A model generated the notes under the pieces. That model was not told where the DNA came from. It did not search any database and saw only the letters and a list, made by a program, of their open reading frames with translations. From IMG/VR virus record IMGVR_UViG_3300024062_000039, positions 1 to 29,349 of that record: a stretch of 29,349 nucleotides of DNA; one strand, written 5' to 3'. Of this stretch, positions 70-7,184 are shown in pieces. The DNA comes from a virus. A program made the translations under genes and the position numbers. The stretch's first letter is position 1; every line of letters starts with the position of its first letter.

Positions 70-1908
70 GTGCAAGCTATTAGAATACCTGAGGGTATTA
101 AGACAATCGAAATCAAAAAGTTGAAATTGTATGAGAATAATGCTCGTACTCACAGCCCTGAGCAAGTGGCTCAAATCGTAACTTCGATGCGTCAATATGG
201 ATTTACTAATCCGGTTTTGGTTGGTGCGGCTGATAACGTTATTGCAGGTCATGGCCGAATCGAAGGGGCTAAGATTTGTGGAATGACTAAGGTTCCATTT
301 ATTCGCCTTGGGCATTTAACGCCCGAACAAACTAGGGCCTACGTTTTGGCTGATAACCAGATAGCTTTGAACGCTGGTTGGGATGAAGATTTGCTAGCTA
401 AAGAGTTACAAGATTTATCGGCTGGTGATTACGATCTAAGCTTCATGGGTTTTGACGATGATTTTTTAGAAGAAATGTTAGGAAATGATTTAGGCTCACA
501 GTTAGATAATAAATCGGTTTTAGATAAAGACGATGAGCCTGAAGAAATAAAAGAGCCTGAAGTTTCAGAAGAGGAAATAAAGGCCGAAGAAATTCCAGAG
601 GTAGAAGAAAATAAACACGATGTTAAAGTTGGCGAAGCTTGGGATTTGGGCGCGAGTAAATTAGTTAATGGCGATTGTCTTGAATCTTTAAAGGCGTTGG
701 AATCTGATTCGCTAGATTCGTTGGTGACTGATCCCCCAGCTGGGATTTCATTCATGGGGAAAGATTGGGATGATGATAAAGGCGGCTCGAAGCAATGGAT
801 TTCTTGGATGACTGAAGTTATGGCCGAGTGTCTTAGGGTTTTAAAACCTGGCGCTCATGGTTTGGTTTGGGCTATCCCTAGAACTTCTCACTGGACCGCT
901 ACCGCTTTAGAGGATGCTGGCTTTGAGATTCGTGATGTAGTCACTCATTTATTTGGTTCTGGTTTTCCTAAGTCTCACAATATCAGTAAGGCTATTGATA
1001 AAGAGGCTGGGGTTGAGCGGGAAAAAGGGTTTAGGCCCATTGCATATCCAGATTCAGACTGTTGGGGAACGCCTAACTCAAGCGGCGAAGATATAAAAAC
1101 GAATGATAAGATATATAGCGATAGAAAATCAATGAAATCAAAACCAGGTATGATTGAAACCGACTATGCAGCAACCCCCGAAGCAAAAAAATACGAAGGA
1201 TACGGCACCGCCCTAAAGCCAGCTTCAGAGCATTGGATTTTAGTTAGAAAACCTTTATCTGAAGATACTATCGTTAAGAATGTTTTAAAGCATGGAACGG
1301 GTGGGATTAATATTGATGGGTGTAGGGTTGATGCTGGCGATCAAGATTCTTTAGAAAAAAATTGGGATAGGGTGCAAAGCGCAAAAAGAGGCGTTTCAGC
1401 GACTGGGCTTAAACCTGTAGATTTGTCGGATAGAAAAAAACAAGGCCGATTCCCTGCCAACCTAGTTCTATCCGGCGATGCGCCTGAGTTGTTGGATGAA
1501 CAGAGTGGGGAGTTGACTAGTGGCGCTAGTAAATCATCATATATTCAGAAGGCATCAGAAAATAAATCAATGTCAGGAAATAATTATGAAAGAAAAATGA
1601 AGGATAGAGATGCTGATTCCGGCGGAGCCTCCCGTTTCTTCTATTGCGCCAAGCCCGCAAAATCAGACAAGGGCGAAATCAATAATCATCCAACGGTAAA
1701 ATCTACAAAGCTAATGAGATATTTTATCACCTTAGTAACTCCAGAAAATGGAAAGGTATTAGATCCGTTTTTAGGTTCGGGAACTACGCTTATAGCTTGC
1801 CAGCAATTAGAGAAAGATTGCGTAGGCTTTGAAAAGGATCCCCACTATTGCAGCGTAATAATAGAACGCTGGCAAAACTTCACGGGGGAGAAAGCTTGCC
1901 GCCTATAG
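70..1908 (+). CDS. ParB-like nuclease domain fused to beta-class DNA methyltransferase
   Basis: The protein likely methylates DNA at N6-adenine or N4-cytosine, protecting phage DNA or marking it around packaging. Residues 10-130 resemble the ParB/Sulfiredoxin fold, with an IAGHGRIEGAK segment (58-68) like the ParB GHRR box. An acidic Glu/Pro-rich linker spans about 152-182. The methyltransferase follows: catalytic motif IV is DPPA at 221-224 in place of the usual DPPY, and the AdoMet-binding motif DPFLGSGTT is at 565-573. Motif IV before motif I places it in the beta class. The start is GTG at 70 behind a run of six G. The 3' end overlaps the small terminase gene, so the two are probably co-translated. 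ParB-methylase fusions next to terminase genes are common in tailed phages. Target sequence is unknown. Confidence 0.88.
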   Translation: MQAIRIPEGIKTIEIKKLKLYENNARTHSPEQVAQIVTSMRQYGFTNPVLVGAADNVIAGHGRIEGAKICGMTKVPFIRLGHLTPEQTRAYVLADNQIALNAGWDEDLLAKELQDLSAGDYDLSFMGFDDDFLEEMLGNDLGSQLDNKSVLDKDDEPEEIKEPEVSEEEIKAEEIPEVEENKHDVKVGEAWDLGASKLVNGDCLESLKALESDSLDSLVTDPPAGISFMGKDWDDDKGGSKQWISWMTEVMAECLRVLKPGAHGLVWAIPRTSHWTATALEDAGFEIRDVVTHLFGSGFPKSHNISKAIDKEAGVEREKGFRPIAYPDSDCWGTPNSSGEDIKTNDKIYSDRKSMKSKPGMIETDYAATPEAKKYEGYGTALKPASEHWILVRKPLSEDTIVKNVLKHGTGGINIDGCRVDAGDQDSLEKNWDRVQSAKRGVSATGLKPVDLSDRKKQGRFPANLVLSGDAPELLDEQSGELTSGASKSSYIQKASENKSMSGNNYERKMKDRDADSGGASRFFYCAKPAKSDKGEINNHPTVKSTKLMRYFITLVTPENGKVLDPFLGSGTTLIACQQLEKDCVGFEKDPHYCSVIIERWQNFTGEKACRL

Positions 1909-2450
1909 TTTCATTATCAGCTTATGCGCGCCACCGTAAATTAAATGTTAAGACGGTTCGCGATGCTATCGACCAAGGTCAGATCACAGCCGAGAGAAAA
2001 GACGGCAAGGTATTTATAGATCAAGAATCTGCAGATAAAGAATGGCTAGAAAACAGGGCCTCAAGGGGGCACTTATCACCAGGCGATAAAAAGAAACCTG
2101 ATAAATATGCAGCGGCCAGAGCGTTAAAAGAACAAGCCAACGCCGAGCTAGTTATTCTAACACTCGCAGAAAGAAAAAAGAGTTTAATAAAAATCGAAGA
2201 GGTTGAGCGCCAGGGCTATGAAATGGCTCGCCGTATTCGAAATTCAATTTTAAATATTCCTGCTAAAATATCCCCCTCACTAGCCGCCGTGGTTGATCCT
2301 CATGAAATGGAAGTGATTCTATACCGTGAGTTAAATCAGGCCCTTGAGGATTTATCGAAAATTAAAACTAATGCCCCGGTTGATTTAAGCGATAATGATC
2401 AAGGGGTAGTCGATGACCAGAGTGCAAATAATTCAGAAGTTAAGGGCTGA
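1896..2450 (+). CDS. terS: Terminase small subunit (Nu1-like)
   Basis: This 184-residue protein fits the DNA-recognition subunit of a lambda-type terminase. An N-terminal helix-turn-helix-like stretch (VSLSAYARHRKLNVKTV, roughly residues 5-21) is followed by a wing-like KDGKVFID segment, and then by a Lys/Glu-rich helical region. That is the layout of phage Nu1/DUF1441 proteins, which bind the packaging site and recruit the large subunit. The frame is open upstream to a TTG at 1848, but the TTG at 1896 has a strong ribosome site (GGGGGAG, 5 bases before it), so I start there, 13 bases inside the methyltransferase gene. The large subunit is not adjacent: a minus-strand operon lies between them. 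Confidence 0.72.
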   Translation: MPPIVSLSAYARHRKLNVKTVRDAIDQGQITAERKDGKVFIDQESADKEWLENRASRGHLSPGDKKKPDKYAAARALKEQANAELVILTLAERKKSLIKIEEVERQGYEMARRIRNSILNIPAKISPSLAAVVDPHEMEVILYRELNQALEDLSKIKTNAPVDLSDNDQGVVDDQSANNSEVKG

Positions 2451-2574
2451 GTTTAATAGGCTGGGCCGAGATGAGTTTATGATTCAAACCTTTGCTAGCT
2501 TGATCCTTACTTTGAGGCGATTGAAACAGGATGTTAAAGATACAAAGCGAAAATCAAATAAGCGAGCGCCATAG
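2413..2574 (+). CDS. Small basic protein of unknown function (53 aa)
   Basis: ATG at 2413 has a good ribosome site (AAGGGG at 2401-2406, 6 bases before the start) and reads 53 codons to TAG at 2572. The product is basic and helical, ending in a Lys/Arg-rich tail (KDTKRKSNKRAP). It overlaps the last 38 bases of the small terminase gene in another frame, which is typical of translational coupling in phage. I do not recognise a family. A packaging accessory role is only a guess from position. Confidence 0.5.
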   Translation: MTRVQIIQKLRAEFNRLGRDEFMIQTFASLILTLRRLKQDVKDTKRKSNKRAP

Positions 2575-2710
2575 GGCTTTAACTGAAATGGCTTGGAATC
2601 CTGTTAAGCATAAACAAGACGGATCGCTTTGGGTTAAGGGTTGCGCTTGTGGCCAGGTGGTTTATTGGTTTATATGCTCAAAGGGTTTTATTTGGGATTT
2701 CCACGATTAA
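2531..2710 (+). CDS. Small unknown protein with CxC motif (59 aa)
   Basis: ATG at 2531 reads 59 codons to TAA at 2708. The ribosome site is poor (ACAGG abuts the ATG). A shorter start at 2588 is possible. The C-terminal half is rich in aromatic residues and contains a CAC pair and a later Cys (GCACGQVVYWFIC), which suggests a small folded or metal-binding peptide. Its last 23 bases overlap tail-to-tail with the minus-strand gene ending at 2688. No family recognised. Confidence 0.4.
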   Translation: MLKIQSENQISERHRALTEMAWNPVKHKQDGSLWVKGCACGQVVYWFICSKGFIWDFHD

Positions 2711-2999
2711 GATTTTGCCCGTATTCTTTGATAACTTTCTTGGCTATAGTCAGAGCCGCCTTATCAACCTCATAGAATGAATCTATATGTTTAATCCAAT
2801 TTCTCACCGTTAAATAGGCTAGGTTTCTTATGTCGGTATTATCTTTCATGCAATTAATATCATCTTGAAAGAGATCATCGCCGATTAATTCCCATGAATC
2901 TTCAGCTTCACCATTTTTAGTCAGCCATTTTTTAGACATTCTTTTTTTAAAGAGATTTGCCTTTTCTTCGCTTTCGAATAAATGCGCCCATACTCCCAT
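2688..2999 (-). CDS. Unknown protein, last gene of the minus-strand operon (103 aa)
   Basis: The reading frame starts at ATG 2999 with a strong ribosome site (AAGGAGAG) upstream on the minus strand. The product is mixed-charge and helical, with several Trp residues (GVWAHLFES, DSWELIG, VRNWIKH) and no membrane segment or signal peptide. It is the last and longest gene of the six in this operon. I do not recognise a family. A cytoplasmic accessory function is the most that can be said. Confidence 0.6.
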   Translation of the reverse strand: MGVWAHLFESEEKANLFKKRMSKKWLTKNGEAEDSWELIGDDLFQDDINCMKDNTDIRNLAYLTVRNWIKHIDSFYEVDKAALTIAKKVIKEYGQNLNRGNPK

Positions 3000-3017
3000 G
3001 ATACTCTCCTTAGTTTG

Positions 3018-3185
3018 TTAAGATTTAACGCCTTTAGCTTCTTTCCATTCATTGAAAATCTTTAAGAACATATCGCTAGCCTTGTGGCCATAAGCTTCAC
3101 ATAATCTATCGAAGCTATCCTTGTCATTCTGATCACAACTAAAGCCTCCAACTATCGCAGGGTTTTTATATTTTTTCGCTGGCAT
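3018..3185 (-). CDS. Small unknown protein (55 aa)
   Basis: ATG at 3185 is preceded by AGAAGGAG at normal distance, one of the best ribosome sites in the window, and reads 55 codons to TAA at 3018-3020. The peptide starts MPAKKYKNPAIV and ends in an amphipathic helix (FLKIFNEWKEAKGVK). It overlaps the preceding gene by 20 bases in another frame. No family recognised. The ribosome site and gap-free packing argue that it is real. Confidence 0.5.
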   Translation of the reverse strand: MPAKKYKNPAIVGGFSCDQNDKDSFDRLCEAYGHKASDMFLKIFNEWKEAKGVKS

Positions 3186-3339
3186 TATCTACTCCTTCTT
3201 CTATTGCTAATTCCATTGCCTTTGTAGCTAGGTTTATTAGAGATTGAACTTCATCATTAGTGGTAACTTCTCCATGCTTTAATTCATATACCCTTAATTT
3301 TTTTATAGCTGTCATTAGGTGGTCCGATATTTCTTTCAT
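3166..3339 (-). CDS. Small unknown helical protein (57 aa)
   Basis: ATG at 3339 has AAGGA about 8 bases upstream and reads 57 codons to TAA at 3166. The product is predicted all-helical and slightly acidic (MKEISDHLMTAIKKL at the start, NLATKAMELAIEEG near the end). Its ATG overlaps the stop of the gene before it by 4 bases, so the two are coupled. No family recognised. Confidence 0.5.
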   Translation of the reverse strand: MKEISDHLMTAIKKLRVYELKHGEVTTNDEVQSLINLATKAMELAIEEGVDNASEKI

Positions 3340-3542
3340 TGGCTTTTCCTTTCGCTGTTATCGTAAGAGTGTTTTAATTCGGTTATCATGAATCCGTGTA
3401 CCTTCTCGGGGATATCGTTAAGCCTTATATATCTATGTTCGCCTAATACTTTGTAAAAAGAGTAACTAAAAAATTCACCATTCTTGCCAATGAATCCCTT
3501 GGCTAGTATTCCGTTTATGATTATTGAATGGCTTGTTTTCAT
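3336..3542 (-). CDS. Small unknown protein (68 aa)
   Basis: ATG at 3542 overlaps the stop of the upstream gene (ATGA), and its own TGA overlaps the next ATG. It therefore sits in a chain of coupled genes. The product begins with a beta-rich part (HSIIINGILAKGFIGKNGEFFSYSFYKV) and ends in a charged tail. There is no signal peptide or membrane helix. I do not recognise a family. Confidence 0.5.
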   Translation of the reverse strand: MKTSHSIIINGILAKGFIGKNGEFFSYSFYKVLGEHRYIRLNDIPEKVHGFMITELKHSYDNSERKSQ

Positions 3543-3763
3543 TTTTGATCAAACTCCAGGGTATAGCGCTCCTCGCCTTTGCGAGTTATTTTATACTTTA
3601 TATCGTATCTTGTTACGGCAAGTTCTAACAATCCATCTTCAACTAATTTATTTGAAATTAATATTTCTTCGCCAGTTAGATTGTTTCTATCCCAACCAGA
3701 ATCGCCAAGGTTAATTGAGAATTGTAAAATACTCATTTGTTTTTTTGTTAGTTTATTTTGCAT
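3539..3763 (-). CDS. Small winged-helix-like protein (74 aa)
   Basis: ATG at 3763 has GGGAG about 8 bases upstream. The layout resembles a winged helix: a first helix (TKKQMSILQFSINL), a helical part containing ISNKLVEDGLLE like a recognition helix, then a hairpin-like YKITRKGEERY, reminiscent of the wing of MarR/PadR-type proteins. It could be a small DNA-binding regulator of this operon or of packaging. The assignment is from pattern only, and no family match was tested. It is coupled (ATGA) to the next gene. Confidence 0.5.
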   Translation of the reverse strand: MQNKLTKKQMSILQFSINLGDSGWDRNNLTGEEILISNKLVEDGLLELAVTRYDIKYKITRKGEERYTLEFDQK

Positions 3764-3787
3764 TTTGTGACTCCCTTAGTTTGGTTG

Positions 3788-3803
3788 AGGCCCCGAAGGG
3801 CTT
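3788..3803 (-). terminator. GCCC-TTCG-GGGC hairpin after the first minus-strand gene
   Basis: In the minus-strand RNA the arms GCCC and GGGC (3790-3793 and 3798-3801) flank a UUCG tetraloop, directly after the TAA of the 3942-3802 gene. A further A-U and G-U pair extend the stem. No U-tract follows in the minus direction, so it is more likely an mRNA stabiliser or partial attenuator than a full terminator. A near copy lies at 10796-10811. Confidence 0.45.
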
Positions 3804-3942
3804 ATTTTTCAGATTGTACAATTTTAAGAATCCTAAGTTCTTTAAGCCTTCGCTTCATTGTCTCAACTACTTTTGGATCAGCTTCAATTTCTGCAGGGTG
3901 TGGGATGATCTTGATCTTGGTTTTTTTCGTTTCGTTGCTCAT
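3802..3942 (-). CDS. Small basic unknown protein, first gene of the minus-strand operon (46 aa)
   Basis: An open frame reaches a start at 4005, but ATG at 3942 has GGGAG about 8 bases before it in a leader (GGGAGCAACAAAATG) almost the same as that of the 3763 gene, so I start there. The 46-residue product is Lys/Arg-rich (KKTKIKIIPHPAE, then KVVETMKRRLKELRILK), suggesting a basic helix. No family is recognised. A nucleic-acid-binding role is a guess. Confidence 0.45.
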   Translation of the reverse strand: MSNETKKTKIKIIPHPAEIEADPKVVETMKRRLKELRILKIVQSEK

Positions 3943-4018
3943 TTTGTTGCTCCCTTTGTTGGTTATATATCTCTTATCGACATTTTTAAAAAATAAATTA
4001 GACAAACTTAATCGGCTA

Positions 4019-4051
4019 ATAATAATAGCTACTTATAAGCCCTATTATTAT
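4019..4051. promoter_or_regulatory. 10-bp perfect inverted repeat in the divergent promoter region (operator candidate)
   Basis: ATAATAATAG at 4019-4028 is repeated inverted as CTATTATTAT at 4042-4051, with a 13-base spacer. The right arm overlaps the best -10 box of the minus-strand operon. The arms are AT-rich, so chance is possible, but the placement between two divergent transcription units suits a repressor site. Confidence 0.4.
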
Positions 4052-4076
4052 ACAACCTCGGATAATTACATAATAA
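4047..4076 (-). promoter_or_regulatory. Candidate promoter for the minus-strand operon
   Basis: On the minus strand a perfect TATAAT (4052-4047) is preceded at 18 bases by TTATTA (4076-4071), a poor -35 box. Transcription would begin near 4040 and give a leader of about 100 bases before the ATG at 3942. Confidence 0.35.
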
Positions 4077-4083
4077 CAGGCGG

Positions 4084-4113
4084 TTACAACAATTGATGCA
4101 CAGTCTATATAAT
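4084..4113 (+). promoter_or_regulatory. Candidate promoter for the large terminase and head genes
   Basis: TTACAA at 4084-4089, an 18-base spacer and a perfect TATAAT at 4108-4113 form a sigma-70-like promoter. Transcription would start near 4120, leaving only about 10 bases before the terminase ATG at 4131, which has no clear ribosome site. That points to nearly leaderless translation from this promoter, or to read-through from another. Confidence 0.4.
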
Positions 4114-4130
4114 TCTGCTAGTTTAAAGCC

Positions 4131-7100
4131 ATGCCTTACACTCAAGCCCTAGCAAATGGCCTAAAACCGGATCCTATTTTAACTGTCAGCCAATGGGCCG
4201 ACAAATATAGGTATCTTTCGACTAAGGCATCAGCCGAGCCGGGGAAATATAGAACCGATCGAACGCCATATCTTCGCGAGCCGATGGACGCTTTGAGTCA
4301 TATGAGTACCATTCGTGAGGTTATTTTTAAAAAAGGAAGTCAGGTCGGGGCACCGCTTGCGCTTGATACAAAGGTACCTACTACCGATGGTGTCAAAACA
4401 ATGGAATCAATTGAGGTTGATGATTTTGTTTATGGTTCTGACGGTTGGCCTGTAAAAGTTATTGGCAAGTCTGAGGTTTTTAAAGATCAAGATTGCTATG
4501 AAGTTACTTTTGATTCTGGTGAAGTTATTAAATGCGATTCTAGGCATTTATGGACTTTAGAAAAGTCTAACCTTAAAGGGAAGTTTCAGACAGTTACTAT
4601 CTCAACGGATACCCTGTTAGATACATATAAAAAAAGAGATCGCAATGTATATAGATTGCCTAATATAAAGCCGATGATTTCTTGTGAGGCCGACCTTCCT
4701 ATTGATCCTTATACGTTAGGGGTTTGGCTGGGTGATGGTCATAGATCACAGAATAGAATATGTGCTGGCGCTCATGACTCTGATGAAATAGCTGGTTATA
4801 TCCCTTATAGAACTAAGGTTGAGAGTGAGCACAGATCAGTTAAAAATATTTTGATTGATCCTAGAGATGAAGTTTATTGTGTACGAGGCCATAGGTTTGA
4901 TGTAACTGGAAAGAATAAGCATGGCCGTTGCTCTGAATGTCATAGAATTAGATCAAACGGTGGCCAATTACCTGATAGAAAGCCTTCTTTTTACGAAAAA
5001 ATAAAAGAAAATAATCTTTTAAAGAATAAACATATCCCAGAAAAATATTTATATTCGAGCCTTTATCAGAGAATTGCTTTGCTTCAGGGCCTTATGGATA
5101 CTGATGGTTATTGCTCTAAAGATGGTTTGTGTGAGTTTAGCAATACGAACGAAAATATTTCTAGAGGTTTATTTTTTATTCTTGGTTCTTTAGGGTTTAA
5201 GCCTAGATTTAAGGTTAAAAAACCAAGGAGTGATAATAGGAAAGAGTTGTTTATAGTAAGGTTTACGGCCTATGCTAGTGATCCGGTTTTTAGATTGGTA
5301 AGAAAAAAAGGTAGGTTAAATAATTCTGGTAGAATTTTTGATACTAAATATAGACGGATATCAAAAGTTGAAAAGCTAGATAAAAAAATTGATACGGTTT
5401 GCATCAAGGTAGCAACGGCGGATTCGTTATTTGCGATAACTGATTCATTTATACTCACCCATAATACTGAAATGGGCAATAATTGGATTGGCTACGTTAT
5501 GGACTACGCGCCTGGCCCTATGCTGGTAGTCCAGCCCACGGTTGAGATGGCTAAGAAGTTTTCAAAGCAGAGACTGGAGCCATTGGTTGACGAAACGCCT
5601 CGGATAAAAGAAAAAATCGCAACCAAAAAATCAAAAGATTCAGATAATACGTTAATGAGCAAATCATTTCCCGGCGGAACGCTTTTTTTGACTGGAGCTA
5701 ATAGTAGTGCAGGGCTAGCCAGTATGCCCGCAAAAGACCTCATGTTAGACGAAGTGGATAGATATCCGGCGGACGTAAACGGTGAAGGTGATCCTTCAAA
5801 GCTAGCGAAGAAAAGACAGGCAACATTTTCCCGGCGGAAAACTTTAGAAATCTCAACGCCCACCGAAGATACCACTTCGAGGATTACCGCAAGCTTCGAA
5901 ACTACCGATAAAAGATATTATTATATCCCTTGCCCCCATTGCGATCATGCTCAAACCCTTGTCTGGGAGCAAGTTCGATGGAAAAATGATTCTCATGTAG
6001 GTGCCTGGTATGAGTGCATCGAGTGCGAAGAAAAAATCGAAGAGTGGCAAAAAACCAAAATGCTCGAAAAGGGTGAGTGGGTTGCTACCGCTGAAGCGAT
6101 TGATCCAAAGGTTAGGGGTTATCACTTAAACGCCCTGTATTCCCCTGTGGGCTGGTATTCGTGGGCCGATTGTGTCAAAGATTACCTCGAAGCTTTAGGC
6201 GATCAGAAGTTAATGAAGGTCTTTGTGAACACGGTTCAAGGGCTTTCGTTCAAAGATATGTTAGAGCAACCCGATTATAAAAGATTATGGGAGCGATCGA
6301 GATCGCCATCTTATAAATTCGGTACCGTTCCACGTGAAACGTGCTTTTTGACTGCAGGGGTTGACCTTCAGAGGGATAGAATAGAGCTAGAAATAGTTGG
6401 ATGGGCTAAAAATCATGTCTCTTATTCCATCGATTACATAGTTTTAGACGGCTCTACCGATCAACCACAAGTTTGGGCCCAGTTATTCGATGTCTTAAAT
6501 CGGGTTTATCCTTGCCAGGATGATCCAACACGGGGCTATAAAATTGCAAAAACTGCGATCGATACGGGTTTCAATACTCAAACCGCTTACAATTGGATTC
6601 GTAAAACAAAAACTCTCAAACTCATGGCTATCAAGGGTAGGGACGAAAGGGATACCGCCGTTTCTATTCCTAAGCCGGTCGATATAAAAATAAAAGGGCG
6701 TGGAGTTATAAAGAGGGGTTTAAATTTAAGCATCCTTGGTGTTAATATGTTGAAAGAAGAACTATATGGTTGGCTGGTCTCGGACGTTCCGGGTGAAAAT
6801 GATCCCATTCCTAGGGGTTATTGTAACTTTTTGCCTTATGGTGAAGAGTATTTTAAAATGCTAACCGCTGAAGCCGTTGAGACATCTATCGTTGGGGCTA
6901 AAGAAGTCCGAAAATGGAAAAAGCTATACGATAGGAATGAGGCGCTTGACTGCCGAATTTATGCAAGGGCCGCAAGTATAAGCCTTGGGAGCGATAGGTT
7001 TCGCGATTCTAACTGGGATTCGATGAAAACTAAAACCCATTTTATTAAAAAAGAAGATCAAGGCGCAAAAGAAACCGCTAAAGAAATAAAAAGTTCACCC

Positions 7101-7184
7101 GAAAAAGAAACTGTGATAAAAACAGAGATACCACTTCAGAAAAAATCGAAAAAAAGAAAACGATCGGTTTCATCATTTTTGTAG
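4131..7184 (+). CDS. terL: Terminase large subunit (GpA family) interrupted by an intein
   Basis: The packaging motor cuts and pumps phage DNA into proheads. The reading frame is 1017 codons; without the intein (residues 75-445) it is 646, close to lambda gpA (641). After splicing, the junction reads GSQVGA-TEMGNNWIGY, matching the ATP-binding loop region of GpA proteins. Walker B is LMLDEVD with acidic residues D540 and E541 (169 and 170 after splicing). A zinc-ribbon-like segment follows (CPHCDH, then YECIEC). The C-terminal nuclease shows GVDLQRDR and AIDTG acid motifs. The C-terminus is Lys-rich. Packaging cannot work until the intein leaves, because it splits the ATP-binding loop. The gene follows the divergent promoter region and precedes gpW and the portal. 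Confidence 0.92.
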   Translation: MPYTQALANGLKPDPILTVSQWADKYRYLSTKASAEPGKYRTDRTPYLREPMDALSHMSTIREVIFKKGSQVGAPLALDTKVPTTDGVKTMESIEVDDFVYGSDGWPVKVIGKSEVFKDQDCYEVTFDSGEVIKCDSRHLWTLEKSNLKGKFQTVTISTDTLLDTYKKRDRNVYRLPNIKPMISCEADLPIDPYTLGVWLGDGHRSQNRICAGAHDSDEIAGYIPYRTKVESEHRSVKNILIDPRDEVYCVRGHRFDVTGKNKHGRCSECHRIRSNGGQLPDRKPSFYEKIKENNLLKNKHIPEKYLYSSLYQRIALLQGLMDTDGYCSKDGLCEFSNTNENISRGLFFILGSLGFKPRFKVKKPRSDNRKELFIVRFTAYASDPVFRLVRKKGRLNNSGRIFDTKYRRISKVEKLDKKIDTVCIKVATADSLFAITDSFILTHNTEMGNNWIGYVMDYAPGPMLVVQPTVEMAKKFSKQRLEPLVDETPRIKEKIATKKSKDSDNTLMSKSFPGGTLFLTGANSSAGLASMPAKDLMLDEVDRYPADVNGEGDPSKLAKKRQATFSRRKTLEISTPTEDTTSRITASFETTDKRYYYIPCPHCDHAQTLVWEQVRWKNDSHVGAWYECIECEEKIEEWQKTKMLEKGEWVATAEAIDPKVRGYHLNALYSPVGWYSWADCVKDYLEALGDQKLMKVFVNTVQGLSFKDMLEQPDYKRLWERSRSPSYKFGTVPRETCFLTAGVDLQRDRIELEIVGWAKNHVSYSIDYIVLDGSTDQPQVWAQLFDVLNRVYPCQDDPTRGYKIAKTAIDTGFNTQTAYNWIRKTKTLKLMAIKGRDERDTAVSIPKPVDIKIKGRGVIKRGLNLSILGVNMLKEELYGWLVSDVPGENDPIPRGYCNFLPYGEEYFKMLTAEAVETSIVGAKEVRKWKKLYDRNEALDCRIYARAASISLGSDRFRDSNWDSMKTKTHFIKKEDQGAKETAKEIKSSPEKETVIKTEIPLQKKSKKRKRSVSSFL
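4353..5465 (+). mobile_element. Class 3-type intein with LAGLIDADG homing endonuclease inside the terminase
   Basis: The 371-residue intein (P75-N445 of the precursor) begins PLALDT and ends ILTHN, followed by Thr as +1 extein residue. Residue 1 is Pro, which cannot act as a nucleophile. The class 3 signature is complete: Trp in block B (W141, two after H139), Cys in block F (C424, VCIKV) and Thr before the terminal His-Asn (T443). In class 3 the block F Cys attacks the upstream splice junction in place of residue 1. The endonuclease has both LAGLIDADG motifs with their acidic residues (LGVWLGDG, D202; LMDTDG, D325), so it may be active. Between them lies a Cys/His cluster (C250, H254, C267, C270) like a zinc ribbon. 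Exact boundaries rest on the signature and on GpA alignment from memory. Confidence 0.88.

Follow-up and report, generated by a model that had tools for sequence, protein, structure and literature searches.

A six-gene leftward operon between the small and large terminase genes of a lambda-type phage is a probable accessory cassette

In a 29,349-bp viral contig of late genes, whose full length is referred to here as the window and whose uncultured phage has a lambda-type GpA terminase, the small (TerS) and large (TerL) terminase genes are separated by a tiling of six minus-strand ORFs (2688-3942). This module is very probably an accessory cassette. On balance, we favor its interpretation as a leftward moron operon at a swappable site, whose products are most likely directed against competing phages.

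Organization and coding evidence of the module

A previous sequence-only reading had described a six-gene minus-strand operon that splits the terminase pair, and our analysis agrees, with TerS (phrog_57) and TerL (GpA) found on either side. The span of 2688-4130 proposed for that operon required adjustment, since the genes do run from 2688, but none of them extends beyond 3942, which leaves 3943-4130 as intergenic DNA. The features of the region are as follows.

70-1908: N6/N4 DNA methyltransferase with a fused ParB-like domain; overlaps TerS by a few bases
1896-2450, plus strand: TerS, small terminase subunit (phrog_57, E 2.5e-29); TTG start inferred from SD and codon score
2413-2574, plus strand: 53-aa ORF overlapping the TerS end; SD AGGGG; top-scoring of its six frames
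2531-2710, plus strand: 59-aa ORF predicted by the codon-usage gene finder; top-scoring of its six frames
2999-2688, minus strand: P1, 103 aa, last operon gene; GTW...GDDDLFD...DxR family
3185-3018, minus strand: P2, 55 aa; SD AAGGAG; codon score 15.0 bits
3339-3166, minus strand: P3, 57 aa; SD present; codon score 10.3 bits
3542-3336, minus strand: P4, 68 aa; ATGA overlaps at both ends; own frame best of six, -6.4 bits
3763-3539, minus strand: P5, 74 aa; codon score 15.1 bits; possible winged-helix regulator
3942-3802, minus strand: P6, 46 aa, ATG start, first operon gene; SD AAAGGGAG
3943-4130: divergent intergenic leader, common to the module and TerL
4131-7184, plus strand: TerL, large terminase GpA (ATPase and nuclease) interrupted by an intein (PF05876/PF20454 plus LAGLIDADG_3)

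The ribosome sites and ATGA overlaps noted earlier are indeed present, the latter at P5/P4 and P4/P3, together with a 20-nt overlap at P3/P2 and SD-like motifs (AGGAG, GGGAG, AGGA, or GGAG) ahead of the module ORF starts. The real tiling comprises 6 ORFs and 1227 nt with an SD on every one, and none of 2000 dinucleotide shuffles came close to this length, the maximum being 438 nt with SD and 603 nt without the SD condition. Across 104 antisense windows over late genes, at most 534 nt were tiled. In addition, scoring with the codon usage of the phage itself placed the annotated frame at the top of the six frames for all 6 ORFs, with P4 being the sole ORF whose absolute codon score is negative, and only slightly so. 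The module also differs in composition from its neighbors (GC of 35% vs 41% for the contig), and the GC skew changes sign across it.

Collectively, the tiling beyond all shuffles, the codon usage, the homology of P1, and a leader that is kept up to the P6 ATG (both described below) lead us to conclude from sequence comparison that the six frames are coding, the P1 homologues being the best direct evidence. Chance open frames, to which the small size of the ORFs and the fact that five of the six match nothing in the databases might point, have a negligible probability in view of this same evidence and are refuted in practice; the possibility named earlier that the frames are not protein-coding is answered in the same way by the codon scores, shuffles, and P1 homologues.

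On the plus strand, the end of the 59-aa ORF overlaps that of P1 by 23 nt in convergent orientation. Searches for homologues of the 53-aa and 59-aa ORFs found none.

The leader and the same site in related phages

A sister phage (L146), whose portal is 69% identical to that of the window, also has minus-strand genes immediately upstream of TerL. The leader at 3940-4011 aligns with L146 140-209 at 80.6% identity over 72 bp, compared with 66.9% for the adjoining late genes, and its Smith-Waterman score was 106, whereas none of 1000 shuffles exceeded 49. The conserved block stops exactly at the P6 ATG, which supports the placement of that start codon at 3942. The L146 genes behind the leader were considered as homologues of the window genes and rejected, since their bodies are unrelated and none matched. 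Judging from these alignments, the two phages have a conserved leader with exchangeable cargo.

The leader contains an inverted repeat (4019-4028/4042-4051), next to which the minus strand reads TATAAT (4052-4047), and we regard the leader as a candidate promoter of the module. The earlier proposal that the operon has its own promoter is backed indirectly: the leader is conserved in L146, but a sigma-70 search of its minus strand returned no site above threshold. A terminator search of the minus strand gave no match.

The leader is present twice in L146. A 20-nt leader repeat, TTTTCATTGAGCTTTTCAGG, occurs ahead of both L146 cassette genes (L163 6333-6352 and 6780-6799, reversed coordinates) and also at the end of the contig of another phage, L147 (4-23), and could possibly be a recombination site for swapping cassette genes. 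There is a hint that L147 may lack one leader-gene unit found in L146. A clean loss of a single cassette gene between the 20-nt repeats was not retained as the origin of L147; the breakpoint fits, but the contig ends only three bases beyond the repeat.

The TerL intein is located at the ATPase P-loop region, where it joins GSQVG and TEMGNNW. It is also present in TerL of L146 (775-3825) and L013 (743-3763) and absent from that of L147 (128-2068). Since L147 lacks the intein although most of the DNA that it shares with L146 is 97-98% identical, the element appears to be mobile between sister phages.

With TerL as bait, we fetched 80 related contigs. TerS and TerL abut or overlap in 48 of the 55 relatives with a recognized TerS, and the exceptions that were inspected (WO phage wKue, L013, L020, and L029) carry plus-strand genes in the gap. 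In wKue, the gap is filled by gp14, a plus-strand ankyrin-repeat gene (L006 3304-4785), which indicates that the gap accommodates accessory genes in WO too. Among the 52 loci holding both the ParB/methyltransferase gene and TerL, with genes called by our rough codon-based finder, at least one minus-strand gene lies between the two in 42 and at least two in 24. An opposite-strand small-gene operon in this interval is likewise what the window contains. The relatives' cassette sits mostly ahead of TerS, that is, at the ParB/methyltransferase-TerS junction, which is closed in the window by the overlap of the two genes; a cassette placed after TerS, between TerS and TerL, is rare. The module is absent from most relatives' terS-terL pairs and is replaced by unrelated genes in L146, as is typical of non-core genes.

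The commonest cassette gene among the relatives is DUF3489/phrog_10315. DUF3489-bearing cassettes recur in the sampled Gammaproteobacterial genomes, between a divergent TerS and a convergent methyltransferase gene, and AcaML1 gp27-gp32 is likewise an opposite-strand small-gene operon. Like these AcaML1-like and Gammaproteobacterial DUF3489 cassettes, the module converges on the upstream late-strand gene and diverges from the terminase genes. In contrast to them, it has no DUF3489, phrog_14596, or phrog_1987 gene, and it follows TerS, whereas the AcaML1-like type precedes it.

Recognizable defence genes were found in the cassettes of only two of the examined relatives, most cassette genes having no assigned function. 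L034 encodes an AbiLi/AbiLii-like ATPase and RloB pair on the minus strand (2969-4890; E ~1e-97 and 2e-30), at the cassette end that adjoins the methyltransferase gene, which corresponds to the slot of P1, the cassette itself lying next to TerS. AbiL acts against phages in other settings. The minus-strand HigB/HigA-like pair of L071 (3934-4974) matches PD-lambda-2 A and, partially, PD-lambda-2 B, and it occupies the slot that a P1 homologue holds in the close relative L072. PD-lambda-2 likewise acts against phages in other settings (PMC9519451). Given these defence pairs in the slot and the differing contents of the cassettes, the site behaves like the defence hotspots of P2 and P4 prophages (PMC9122126). 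Those hotspots share with the present site a short locus of ~1-5 kb, high gene turnover, and a position flanked by conserved phage genes and near packaging functions (PMC9122126; PMC9519451); they belong to a different phage family, and the window has no recognized defence protein. The low GC, the non-packaging content, and the relatives' variable opposite-strand cassettes at this location, some with known defence genes, bear out the original suggestion of a moron or accessory module.

P1 and the other module proteins

Scans of all six proteins against Pfam, PHROGs, and NCBIfam returned no named family and only weak PHROGs matches, in keeping with the earlier statement that none of the six is a packaging gene. 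PADLOC matched no defence model in P1, P2, P5, or P6, and tblastn of the six proteins against 50,697 phage records gave nothing. Scans of viral contigs with P1 alone, TerS, and P5 had as their sole match a contig identical over the module. This contig, IMGVR_UViG_3300024059_000755, is identical across 7773 bp including the module and thus carries no evolutionary information.

Homologues were nevertheless found for P1, while searches with the other five proteins yielded nothing usable, and by sequence these five remain orphans. For P3 and P4, the searches produced no homologues. P2 was considered as a replisome organizer from a match of its C-terminus to phrog_13246 (E 3.6e-4, 33 residues), which is too weak to use. 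P5 had been read as winged-helix-like; its predicted order of elements, H-H-H-E-E, is compatible with this, but the prediction is of low confidence (pLDDT 50). The start of P5, KLTxxQxxIL, resembles the N-terminus of DUF3489 proteins at a level that is not significant (rank 8 of 1000 against shuffles), and we do not claim P5 as a truncated DUF3489 protein on this suggestive resemblance. Indeed, no module protein had a Pfam match, and the comparison of P5 with DUF3489 profiles was not significant. DUF3489 itself has been linked to a known SCOP superfamily through remote homology (PMC4520260), the one passing mention that we found in the literature.

P1 is 27-29% identical to its homologues. A minus-strand gene of L072 matches it over its length, and the L072 protein is in turn matched by the product of an Agarilytica plasmid gene whose neighbors are a DUF3489 gene and a methyltransferase gene. 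Against a profile of the homologues that excluded P1 itself, P1 scored 35.3 bits, whereas the best of 999 shuffles reached 9.5. The homologue is the terminal gene of an opposite-strand cassette in L072, L096, L098, and the prophages of Agarilytica and Hahella, and the methyltransferase gene adjoins it in both of these prophages and in two viral contigs. A distal P1-like gene is a feature of a subset of the members with a ParB/methyltransferase-cassette-terminase arrangement, and the window has it too, sharing with the Agarilytica and Hahella elements a P1-type gene in last place.

The AlphaFold2 model of P1 is all-helical (pLDDT 79), and fold searches with it gave no significant match. The P1 signature (GTW, GDDDLFD, and DxR) was also found as a domain in large proteins of T4-like marine phages (most of L099-L142), T4-like being our own reading of these contigs and the virion role of the proteins resting on the phrog_3004 label. 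L099 has two copies of the P1-like domain. The presence of this domain in such virion proteins explains the weak phrog_3004 match of P1. The phrog_3004-type virion structural proteins have GTW...IGDDDLFD...DxR in common with P1; there, however, the signature is one domain of a larger protein (up to ~1370 aa, several of the frames being contig fragments), unlike the free-standing 103-aa P1.

Possible roles of the module

Tab/anti-Tab of Pseudomonas phage JBD26 is a known prophage defence (PMC10884400). The minus-strand tab has its own promoter and lies between TerS and TerL, and the plus-strand atab overlaps TerS (PMC10884400; JN811560). The same layout is seen in the window, i.e., minus-strand small genes between TerS and TerL and a convergent plus-strand ORF overlapping TerS. 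Tab is, however, one gene where the window has six, and JBD26 belongs to the Mu-like D3112 group, as opposed to a lambda-type GpA terminase here. Tab (83 aa), anti-Tab, and JBD26 TerS showed no detectable sequence similarity to the window proteins, and homology to Tab/anti-Tab was rejected on this basis. As far as this comparison goes, the likeness is one of plan, not of membership.

According to the model that we favor, the six genes would be plugged into the late cluster by the terminase genes as a leftward accessory operon, which is probably transcribed from its own conserved TerL-proximal leader, independently of the rightward late genes. Expression would most likely take place in the prophage. 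The 29 kb revealed neither an integrase nor a repressor, and we therefore infer lysogeny of the window phage from its relatives. The products would most likely interfere with competing phages through superinfection exclusion or defence, and P5 is a candidate DNA-binding regulator. Comparison with the known systems points to defence against competing phages in preference to anti-defence, and, by analogy, we put defence or superinfection exclusion as the main role at slightly under an even chance. By analogy with anti-Tab in JBD26, the 53-aa and 59-aa ORFs may shield the phage from its own module in lytic growth, although we hold such an anti-type role for these plus-strand ORFs to be rather unlikely.

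An early lytic module, with leftward expression beginning shortly after the DNA enters the cell and yielding small proteins for host takeover or anti-defence, is unlikely but still deserves some weight. Phage takeover genes typically form tight operons with strong ribosome sites and encode small proteins that are unrelated and evolve fast, and an orientation against the late genes fits early expression equally well. However, the relatives' slot holds complete defence or toxin-antitoxin systems, which are sensible in a lysogen, the site adjoins late genes and not the early region, and homologous cassettes lie in prophages of sequenced bacteria.

Since the cassette head diverges from the terminase genes in both the window and its relatives, P5 (and perhaps P2 or P6) might instead bind the shared intergenic region and time TerL expression. 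The inverted repeat beside the TATAAT, the link of DUF3489, commonest in the relatives' cassettes, to a SCOP superfamily (PMC4520260), and the possible winged-helix nature of P5 are consistent with this. Nevertheless, the gene content changes completely from one phage to another even where TerL is similar, and cassette genes are missing from several relatives, which makes a core regulatory role unlikely; in addition, the winged-helix fold of P5 comes from a low-confidence prediction. We judge such a regulatory module quite unlikely. A toxin-antitoxin or addiction module built on an overlapping pair, e.g., P3/P2 or P5/P4, is improbable: small gene pairs do overlap here and HigBA occurs in the equivalent L071 cassette, but the window proteins scanned had no toxin or antitoxin match in Pfam, NCBIfam, or PADLOC, and six genes exceed a simple pair.

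A more specific and very improbable extension of the favored competitor-directed moron operon is that P1, as a free-standing version of the virion-protein domain, is produced by the prophage and acts as an assembly decoy that poisons the virion assembly of competitors, with the 53-aa or 59-aa ORF serving as its antidote in lytic growth. If true, this would be a second, unrelated family that follows the strategy of Tab and occupies the same place in the genome.

Terminase-proximal accessory cassettes and prophage defence hotspots are already known as a kind. New, as far as we have seen, are a cassette located between TerS and TerL in phages of this group, its set of six genes of which five are orphans, the conserved leader, and the family to which P1 belongs. 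A conserved leader followed by interchangeable genes offers a simple sequence handle for finding more candidates, and P1 ties orphan cassette proteins to a virion-protein domain of abundant marine phages, which yields a testable prediction of the P1 target. More broadly, if the favored reading holds, the idea of prophage defence hotspots would also cover the terminase region in the large AcaML1/WO-like lambda-type group.
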